From Halorubrum sp. 2020YC2 (GTDB taxonomy: Archaea; Halobacteriota; Halobacteria; Halobacteriales; Haloferacaceae), in the NCBI RefSeq assembly GCF_018623055.1, contig NZ_CP076019.1, positions 620,001-684,000 on the forward strand: 64,000 nt of DNA, written 5' to 3'. The notes below the pieces were generated by a model. That model made no database searches and was not told the DNA's origin. It was given only the letters and a program-made list of their open reading frames with translations. Of the stretch, positions 13,371 to 26,762 are shown one piece after another (the stretch's first letter is position 1; every line of letters begins with the position of its first letter). Made by a program: the position numbers and the translations under genes.

Positions 13371-13708
13371 ATTATAAATATCGACCCACCAGGTGACACG
13401 TTGCGGTGGCGCGTGCCGGTGAGCGCCGCACCGCGGCGCGAACCGCACGCGCGAGGTCGTCGGGCTTCGGCCGACTGCCAGAGGGGCGTCGCGCCTCGCT
13501 GTCACCGGACGTAGTCCGGCGACGAGGCTGGGGAGGCGTGAGGTGCGGTGCTGTGCGGTGCGGGGCGGGACTCAAAGGGGCAGCCGCCGGCGACACCGCA
13601 GGAAGCGAGCAACGCGAGCGACTGAGGGCACAACGAGCGTGCGCCCGCCTCGCGGCTGGGGCTCTGGCGGTGTTCGCCGCCGATCAGGTGGCAGTTATTT
13701 ATAAATAA
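13371..13708 (+). repeat. Structured dispersed repeat, copy 1 (candidate ncRNA)
   Basis: Fills most of the 560-bp gap between gfcR and the glutaredoxin gene. It runs from an AT box (TTATAAATA, 13372-13380) to a perfect 14-nt palindrome TTATTTATAAATAA (13695-13708). Shared blocks with the other copies: GGTGGCGCGTGCC (13405-13417), CGACGAGGCTGGGGAGG (13520-13536), GGGACTCAAAGGGGCAG (13567-13583) and GGCTGGGGCTCTGGCGG (13654-13670). Hairpins: GCGCGTGC/GCACGCGC (13409-13416 with 13445-13452), CCGGAC/GTCCGG (13505-13519), GGCGGT/GCCGCC (13666-13681). Reading frames across it are low-complexity and unlike real haloarchaeal proteins. Confidence 0.8.
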
Positions 13709-13765
13709 GCGGCTGGGACTTCGGCGGTGGTCATCGACCACCCTCACTTGATCGCTTATAAATAA
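13709..13765 (+). repeat. Extra 3'-end module of the repeat after copy 1
   Basis: After the palindrome that closes copy 1, a second short stretch (GGCTGGGACTTCGGCGG..., hairpin GGTGGTC/GACCACC at 13736-13752) resembles the 3' module of the repeat (GGCTGGGGCTTTGGCGG). It ends in another TTATAAATAA at 13756-13765. The remaining 13766-13905 holds nothing recognisable. Confidence 0.5.
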
Positions 13766-13905
13766 CACTCCGCTGCGTCGGCGGCGCTCTTTGCCTGTTC
13801 AGTCGCACCCTATCCCGATTCGAGAGGCCTCCGCGTCCGAACCGCCTCACGATCACCCCTCTCCCGTGCGGAACCCCTTTGTCTCGCCGTCGCGTACGCG
13901 CCTCC

Positions 13906-18102: not shown

Positions 18103-18409
18103 TTTATAAGCAAACGAGGCGGTGCGGTGGCGCGTGCCTGCGAGCGGTCGCCATCGGCGGCCGCGAGTCGGCACGCGCGAGGGAGTCGGCCGACCGCAGG
18201 GAGGCCGACGAGGCTGGGGAGGTGTGAGGTGCTGTGCGGTCGCGGGCGGGTGGGACTCAAAGGGGCAGTCGTGAGGACGGCGCAGGTGACGCGAGCACCG
18301 CAGGAGCGAGTGGAACGAGCGACGAGGAGCGCGGCGAGCGTGCGGCGTCCTCACGACTGGGGCTTTGGCGGTGCTCACCGCCGATCGGCCGGCAGCCATT
18401 TGTAAATGA
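18103..18409 (+). repeat. Structured dispersed repeat, copy 2 (candidate ncRNA)
   Basis: Occupies the divergent gap between the CitE-like and MaoC genes. It starts at TTTATAAG (18103-18110) and ends near CATTTGTAAATG (18397-18408). Conserved blocks: GGTGGCGCGTGCCTGCGAGC (18126-18145), GACGAGGCTGGGGAGGTG (18207-18224), GGGACTCAAAGGGGCAG (18252-18268) and ACTGGGGCTTTGGCGG. Pairings: GCGCGTGCC/GGCACGCGC (18130-18138 with 18170-18178), GTCGGCC/GGCCGAC (18185-18191 with 18203-18209), a 13-bp stem CAGTCGTGAGGAC/GTCCTCACGACTG (18266-18278 with 18347-18359), and TTGGCGGT/ACCGCCGA (18365-18384). The remaining 18410-18495 holds nothing recognisable. Confidence 0.8.
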
Positions 18410-18495
18410 CCGACTGCCTTTCGGAGGGAGTCACCACGAACGGCCCTCCAGTAAAGAGCGGTACCGATTTCACGACGCCGGGCGACCGGCGCGTC

Positions 18496-26385: not shown

Positions 26386-26526
26386 GGCGGCGCGAAAGCG
26401 AGGGATCGCCTTTTCGGCTCCGTTGAAGTCTTCAGAAGGCGAGACGCGTTGCTTCCGTTTCGGTCGGCGCAGAAATAGCGGTGAGCTAGCGGGAGTGGAT
26501 CACTCGAATCGGTCGCTGTGAAACGA

Positions 26527-26536
26527 TATTTAAATA
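26527..26536 (+). promoter_or_regulatory. AT-rich TATA-like box upstream of repeat copy 3
   Basis: ATATTTAAATAG stands out in GC-rich DNA 25-34 nt before the TTATAAA of repeat copy 3. It could be a promoter for a transcript covering the repeat. The rest of 26386-26560 holds nothing recognisable. Confidence 0.35.
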
Positions 26537-26560
26537 GCCGTGAGCGGCAGCGACGTTCAC

Positions 26561-26762
26561 TTATAAAGGTAGACGGTGGCGCGTGCCTGCGAGCGGCCTC
26601 TTGACCGCGAACCGGGACCGAAGGTCCCTCGCTGGAGTCAGTCGCCCGACGCGGAGCGAGGGCGACTGACAGGCCGAGAGCGGAGCTCTCGCTTACAGCC
26701 GGACGGAGTCCGGCGACGAGGCTGGGCTTTGGAGGTGTTCTCCGAAGGATCAGTGGTCATCT
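26561..26762 (+). repeat. Structured dispersed repeat, copy 3 (short form)
   Basis: Starts TTATAAA (26561-26567), then GGTGGCGCGTGCCTGCGAGC (26575-26594). A series of hairpins follows: GGGACC/GGTCCC (26614-26628), an 11-bp stem GTCAGTCGCCC/GGGCGACTGAC (26637-26647 with 26660-26670), GAGAGC/GCTCTC (26676-26690), CCGGAC/GTCCGG (26699-26713). Then CGACGAGGCTGGG joins directly to the 3' hairpin CTTTGGAG/CTCCGAAG (26727-26747). The middle block with GGGACTCAAAGGGGCAG present in copies 1 and 2 is missing, with the junction at a GGCTGGG sequence. Confidence 0.8.

Follow-up and report, generated by a model that had tools for sequence, protein, structure and literature searches.

The BOX repeats of Streptococcus pneumoniae, and similarly ERIC, REP and RUP, are modular, structured intergenic repeats that occur in about 100-150 copies, lie in both orientations and contain internally repeated modules. 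Repeats of this type are thought to move in trans. The bacterial BOX-type repeats have been covered in a review (PMC10969869). Among haloarchaea, Haloquadratum walsbyi carries transposase-free dispersed repeats (PATE, MITE and SMR), of which the PATEs have palindromes near their ends, make no target duplications and are heterogeneous (PMC3119063). The STAR sequences of Staphylococcus are interspersed intergenic repeats whose units expand and contract in number, and which keep a stable sequence of their own at every locus (PMC3532100). Finally, the class I intergenic repeats of the Halorubrum virus HF2 are 56-58 bp long and carry AT boxes (PMC8707807).

Here we describe an element of roughly 350 bases that sits between genes in Halorubrum sp. 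2020YC2, starting from a stretch of 64,000 nucleotides of its chromosome, which we call the window and which covers positions 620001-684000 of a single contig of 3,063,515 bp. The copies of the element are dispersed and intergenic, with modules that fold and that recombine or differ in number; this makes it BOX-like in kind rather than by homology. It differs from BOX in being longer, in having a covarying long-range helix (P3) and a tail that repeats the element's own 3' strand, in its class-wide occurrence in haloarchaea and in the swapping of cores at fixed sites; a relation in sequence is not expected. Unlike PATEs, it shows no match to the ends of the three IS200/IS605 loci of its own genome, has a complex internal fold, is confined to the chromosome and is site-stable with exchanged cores. 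Its behaviour is the opposite of that of STAR, since sites are stable and contents are exchanged, and the HF2 repeats, close in length to its 57-bp tail units, differ in being viral promoters with other conserved motifs. Our preferred reading, to which we give a probability of about 0.58, is that of a BOX-like element of haloarchaea that is dispersed between genes, modular and non-autonomous, and whose cores are exchanged between fixed sites.

Anatomy of the element

The original prediction had recognised three copies on the plus strand of the window, each preceded by a TTATAA-like box, made of shared blocks and closed by a hairpin. Re-reading of the motif positions confirmed this: GGTGGCGCGTGCC is found at 13405, 18126 and 26575, CGACGAGGCTGGG at 13520, 18206 and 26714, and GGGACTCAAAGGGGCAG at 13567 and 18252 only, that is, in copies 1 and 2, all on the plus strand, with a TTATAA box 5' of each copy and a hairpin and tail 3' of each. 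The parts are given below, with E-values from two covariance models (R1 and R2); P1 to P3 are the paired regions.

Copy 1, 13372-13378, no strand assigned: TTATAA box, palindromic, 5' of the element (sequence; the box typically lies 14-25 nt upstream of copies).
Copy 1, 13406-13583, plus strand: P1, expanded P2 with extra hairpins, G-rich linker and GGGACTCAAAGGGGCAG (R1, E 9.6e-25).
Copy 1, 13563-13691, plus strand: P3 helix, its 5' side partly deleted, and start of the tail (R2, E 5.1e-16).
Copy 1, 13656-13769, plus strand: two tail units with a TTATAA box in each, at 13698 and 13756 (sequence).
Copy 2, 18103-18109, no strand assigned: TTTATAA box (sequence).
Copy 2, 18127-18268, plus strand: P1, P2, linker and GGGACTCAAAGGGGCAG (R1, E 3.4e-25).
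Copy 2, 18248-18392, plus strand: P3 helix and first tail hairpin (R2, E 6.8e-31; fold z-score -4.6).
Copy 2, 18393-18450, plus strand: remainder of the tail unit plus another unit that has decayed (read against the congener copy in L102).
Copy 3, 26526-26567, no strand assigned: TATTTAAATA box about 31 bp 5' of the TTATAA box, a minority type of leader (sequence).
Copy 3, 26575-26760, plus strand: decayed; start block, P2-type hairpins, and CGACGAGGCTGGG fused to CTTTGGAGGTGTTC (sequence; weak R2 score).

Copy 1 runs on into a second tail unit, the two units lying at 13656 and 13713. The third copy, proposed for 26561-26762, does contain the blocks but is a decayed, truncated copy and not a full element: it lacks the 3' strand of P1 as well as the whole of P3, and falls short of E <= 0.001 in both models (E 0.29 with R2).

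The general anatomy was derived from 74 parsed copies of the genome, using fuzzy anchors, so that degenerate copies are under-represented in the statistics. The modules follow in the order AT box, P1, P2, GAGGCTGGGGAGG with the G-rich linker, GGGACTCAAAGGGGCAG, P3, CTGGGGCTTTGG and tail units, and the parsed copies bear out the earlier proposal that the order of blocks is fixed and the parts between them diverge. P1 is formed by GGCGCGTGCC and GCACGCGC, with a three-base step (TGC/GCA, GAC/GTC, GGT/ACC and TCC/GGA among other versions) followed by a tandem G-A mismatch and an inner stem. P2 is a stem that exists in many versions, with extra hairpins in some copies, and P3 is a long helix with a GGG/GGG internal loop in its base and an apex of short helices with G-A mismatches between them. 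The tail consists of one to seven units, mostly of 57 bp, in which the 3' side of the P3 base is repeated together with a small hairpin and often a TTATAA.

Five G-tracts in the linker and P3 base (TGGGGAGG, GGGNGGG, AAGGGGC and TGGGGC) make up the most invariant part of the copies. We considered a G-quadruplex core and set it aside: the tracts are present in 70-74 of the 74 copies, but ViennaRNA favours the quadruplex in just two of 25, with parameters that are not made for molar KCl, in which a quadruplex is conceivable.

The TTATAA box lies mostly 16-18 nt 5' of the element, and within 14-25 nt for most copies. It is present whether the left gene ends there (27 of 35) or starts there (19 of 35) and occurs nowhere further upstream. 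This independence from the direction of the left gene indicates that the box belongs to the Halorubrum element and is not the promoter of a neighbouring gene. At the loci read from other genera it is absent from the corresponding place. The original prediction had taken it for the TATA box of an RNA, which we do not uphold, since it is too close to the element in addition to being absent from those relatives. In haloarchaeal promoters the TATA box usually lies about 27 nt before the start; from a box 16-18 nt away, a start at this spacing would fall about 12 nt inside P1, and a start about 24 nt on from the box would leave out its 5' strand. As P1 is a helix kept by covariation, TTATAA is an unlikely promoter for the complete fold. 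In about 12% of the copies of the genome a TTTAAA box is found 30-32 bp above TTATAA (26526-26567 in the window; L022, L023, L046, L048 and L050 elsewhere). Judged by spacing, the start predicted from this box lies 5' of P1, and such copies may be expressed.

A fold conserved on one strand

The original prediction left its structured RNA to be judged by covariation, and this proved very significant against shuffle controls, which contain no model of phylogeny. RNAalifold on 33 copies of the genome gave 58 pairs, 28 of them with compensatory double changes. The named helices of P3 hold 56 double-change cells against 15 in shuffles, and those of P1 and P2 hold 86 against 30 (0 of 500 shuffles in both cases, with the phylogeny ignored); in the count over named helices, 98.8% is paired. 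Single copies also fold better than their shuffles (z -4.6 and -6.4). Across genera the signal is stronger still, with double changes in 36 of 39 pairs of the P3 part and in 20 of 24 pairs of the P1/P2 part, in alignments fitted to the models, which favours the signal.

In the paired columns, G-T combinations outnumber A-C by 70 to 11 (p 1e-11), from which it follows that the plus strand is the strand that folds. The plus strand thus folds as a single strand, with the fold conserved by compensatory change, and RNA and single-stranded DNA are both compatible with this. Of the structured RNA originally proposed, the structure and the undescribed family stand, whereas RNA as the material does not follow, given that the wobble data fit single-stranded DNA too.

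It could be argued that the compensatory changes are an artefact at the DNA level, in which template switching at quasi-palindromes makes perfect stems without any selection on the fold. Whole stems do differ at the same site between close species and still pair perfectly, as such a process would predict. However, being symmetric on the double strand, it predicts as many A-C as G-T combinations, in conflict with the 70:11 found. Nor would it be expected to produce fixed unpaired blocks or a long-range P3 base helix that is conserved across genera (CAAAG/CTTTG, CGAAG/CTTCG, GAAAG/CTTTC and GGAAG/CTTCC), and the same exact stem versions are found at many loci, which makes exchange more likely than rewriting. 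We regard this explanation as highly improbable.

A different possibility is a noncoding RNA that is encoded in many copies and serves the cell, in which case many copies would be transcribed, the folded RNA, with the tandem G-A internal loops and the GGG/GGG loop of P3, would act in a ribonucleoprotein and the swapping of cores would be concerted evolution of the kind seen in rRNA genes. The complex architecture with near-invariant unpaired blocks conserved across genera speaks for it, as does the wobble bias on one strand. Should the family be transcribed, few unexplained RNA families of archaea would be more abundant. We nevertheless consider this reading unlikely, because the orientation to neighbouring genes varies (-- 25, +- 21, ++ 14 and -+ 10 around intergenic copies, with a home-made gene finder), the common AT box is misplaced as promoter of the whole fold and missing in relatives from other genera, many copies have decayed, and there is gain and loss of sites. 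The fold most likely serves for recognition of the element in its single-stranded state while it is copied, a cellular RNA function being less likely.

We also noticed, after the fact, that the start GCGGTGGCGCGTGCCTG (18126-18140, and other copies) has a 17-nt identity with the 5' end of human 7SL RNA. SRP covariance models gave no match to the element up to E 10; the likeness is probably a coincidence, and we set aside a relation to SRP RNA or its Alu-like derivatives.

Copy number and distribution

A search with a 17-mer at up to two mismatches found 67 + 83 = 150 occurrences in the genome, compared with none for a reversed-pattern control, and the covariance model gave at least 152 matches in the 3.06-Mb chromosome. 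Many full copies also came up in a DNA search. With 150 copies of about 350 bp, the family is estimated to occupy some 50 kb, or about 1.7%, of the chromosome. The shared plus strand noted in the original prediction is true of the window but is a local coincidence, as the 150 copies listed comprise 66 on the plus and 84 on the minus strand. The elements are spaced at random, about one per 20 kb and on both strands, and we dismissed a replication-oriented signal for want of strand bias along the chromosome.

Further copies in related genomes, for which the original prediction called, are numerous. In a class-wide sample all 46 Halorubrum genomes match, nearly all of them strongly, and at E <= 1e-4 matches were found in 126 of the 391 genomes sampled and in 33 of the 86 haloarchaeal genera, with up to 80 matches per genome outside Halorubrum. 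Among the matches listed for the exact GGGACTCAAAGGGGCAG, 79 of 80 stretches carry the title Halorubrum and one that of 'uncultured archaeon A07HR67'. Relatives in other genera retain P1, GGCTGGGGAGG, the G-rich linker, GGGACTGAAAGGGGC paired with GGGGCTTTC, the apex of P3 and tail-like units.

The description of the family as a candidate new one also holds for the sources covered. The scan of the window with Rfam 15 returned a single tRNA, with no meaningful match for the element regions up to E 5-10. Text and sequence-string searches of the open literature found no description, though the family may have been mentioned elsewhere. Plasmid-borne spread was rejected, the element being present in three PLSDB plasmid records in all. 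The phage records showed no similarity to the element, and a viral origin was discarded too: 61 viral contigs contain the 15-mer, and just four of these reach a weak score (best E 0.00086), all four with one common 153-bp layout of lower GC, which we judged to be chance.

On a practical matter, six draft contigs of the congener genome G021 (C52, C56, C57, C58, C87 and C88) terminate inside an element, so these repeats probably break short-read assemblies of Halorubrum. For haloarchaeal genomics, this means repeats at the ends of draft contigs that also fill the intergenic regions in which promoters and small RNAs are sought.

Replacement of cores at inherited sites

The modules of the copies in our genome come close to linkage equilibrium. 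Similarity matrices computed for P1, P2, linker, P3 and tail show almost no correlation (Mantel r about 0), with P2-P3 alone reaching 0.24, and the best whole-core identity between two copies is 0.925. Between species, we followed 37 sites in two close congeners, G021 and G016, whose flanks are mostly 90-97% identical. At least 28 of the 37 have an element at the same site, and P1, P2 and P3 there are mostly other versions that are still paired. Core identity averages 0.72, only slightly above that of non-orthologous copies, and within some 75 bp the left flank has returned to 93%. Among 19 element-free spacers, 14 are at 0.83-0.99 and five at 0.31-0.80; given these five, the turnover may partly be general to intergenic DNA.

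The comparison of our genome with G061 gave the same pattern. Both genomes are single contigs, which makes assembly chimeras an unlikely source of the mosaics. Fifteen of 20 sites are occupied in both, and cores at a shared site are no more alike than random pairs (P1.726/.725, P2.724/.721, P3.783/.782), whereas orthology is kept in the upstream 60 bp (.73/.54) and in the tail (.81/.72); at least one of the 15 pairs (L471) has an imprecise P1 boundary. Since the flanks of shared sites stay about 85-97% identical between congeners, the pattern shows that the core at an inherited site is replaced from the family pool much faster than its flanks diverge. The prevailing base of P3 differs by clade, CGAAG/CTTCG in the copies of G016 and G021 and CAAAG/CTTTG in our genome, which points to concerted evolution. 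The family thus offers a measurable case of concerted evolution, in which positions are inherited and contents are exchanged within about 5% divergence.

As a pattern, then, the family evolves in concert while many stem versions persist. In our preferred reading, cores would be replaced through ectopic gene conversion from one copy to another, seeded in the near-invariant blocks that separate the modules. The fold would be retained for recognition of the element as a single strand, RNA or top-strand DNA, during copying. Haloarchaea are polyploid and have active gene conversion, which makes this the simplest mechanism, although the rate over such short shared blocks would be unusual. Replacement could alternatively come about by re-insertion at the same place, in which case the tail units would be relics of earlier occupants. 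In the pair L412/L466, the two genomes share an orthologous distal tail unit, and one of them carries an additional proximal unit. This would be expected of tails that keep a record of earlier occupants, or of tails produced by unequal exchange. A bolder reading is a self-propagating family of structured RNA or single-stranded DNA that homes to its existing sites and copies its cores as intact cassettes, the stacked tail units being a record of past occupants; it would be an archaeal analogue of retrohoming that lacks its own enzyme. We think of this as rather unlikely. No match to the reverse transcriptase family PF00078 was found in the genome, and the element was not assigned to the retroelements or group II derivatives.

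The genome does contain three Y1 (IS200/IS605-type) transposase genes, and the element could be PATE- or MITE-like and be moved by such an HUH enzyme, with its top strand as single-stranded DNA folding at near-terminal hairpins. This would explain both the strand bias and the absence of target duplications. It is in line with hairpins near both ends, a fold on one strand and the lack of terminal inverted repeats in the aligned copies, and the PATEs of Haloquadratum are of a similar type (PMC3119063). Against it, none of the three Y1 loci shows a link to the element and their ends are unrelated to it, the element is nearly absent from plasmids even though plasmids carry Y1 elements, there has been no recent burst of near-identical copies, and the long P3 fold is more than a transposase would require. 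We therefore hold movement by Y1 to be decidedly unlikely. One of the Y1 genes (L393, at about 2.313 Mb) has two in-frame TAG codons and lies about 1 kb from an element whose ends do not match; a neighbour at this distance is expected by chance.

Most sites are inherited between species, with an occasional gain or loss. That of copy 2 holds an element in our genome and in one congener (L102), a tail remnant in another (L103) and a short empty spacer in 26 congeners; at empty sites, neither an exact insertion junction nor a target duplication was readable. The suggestion of a mobile element is hence right insofar as sites are present or absent between species, but the copies are mosaics with no recent whole-element duplicates, unlike an ordinary transposon burst.

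Eleven pairs of elements lie less than 3 kb apart, and ten of them are in opposite orientation, eight as '+ gene -'; perhaps direct close pairs are lost by recombination. A composite transposon was considered for the inverted pairs and rejected, as the genes between them are housekeeping genes (msrA-, thi4- and hisA-like and others, for example at L040, L045, L014, L068 and L087 of our genome). In other genera, too, elements or halves of them lie close together on opposite strands (L172 1260-1521, L177 and L180), and in the first of these stretches the two elements overlap tail to tail and have their 3' end in common.
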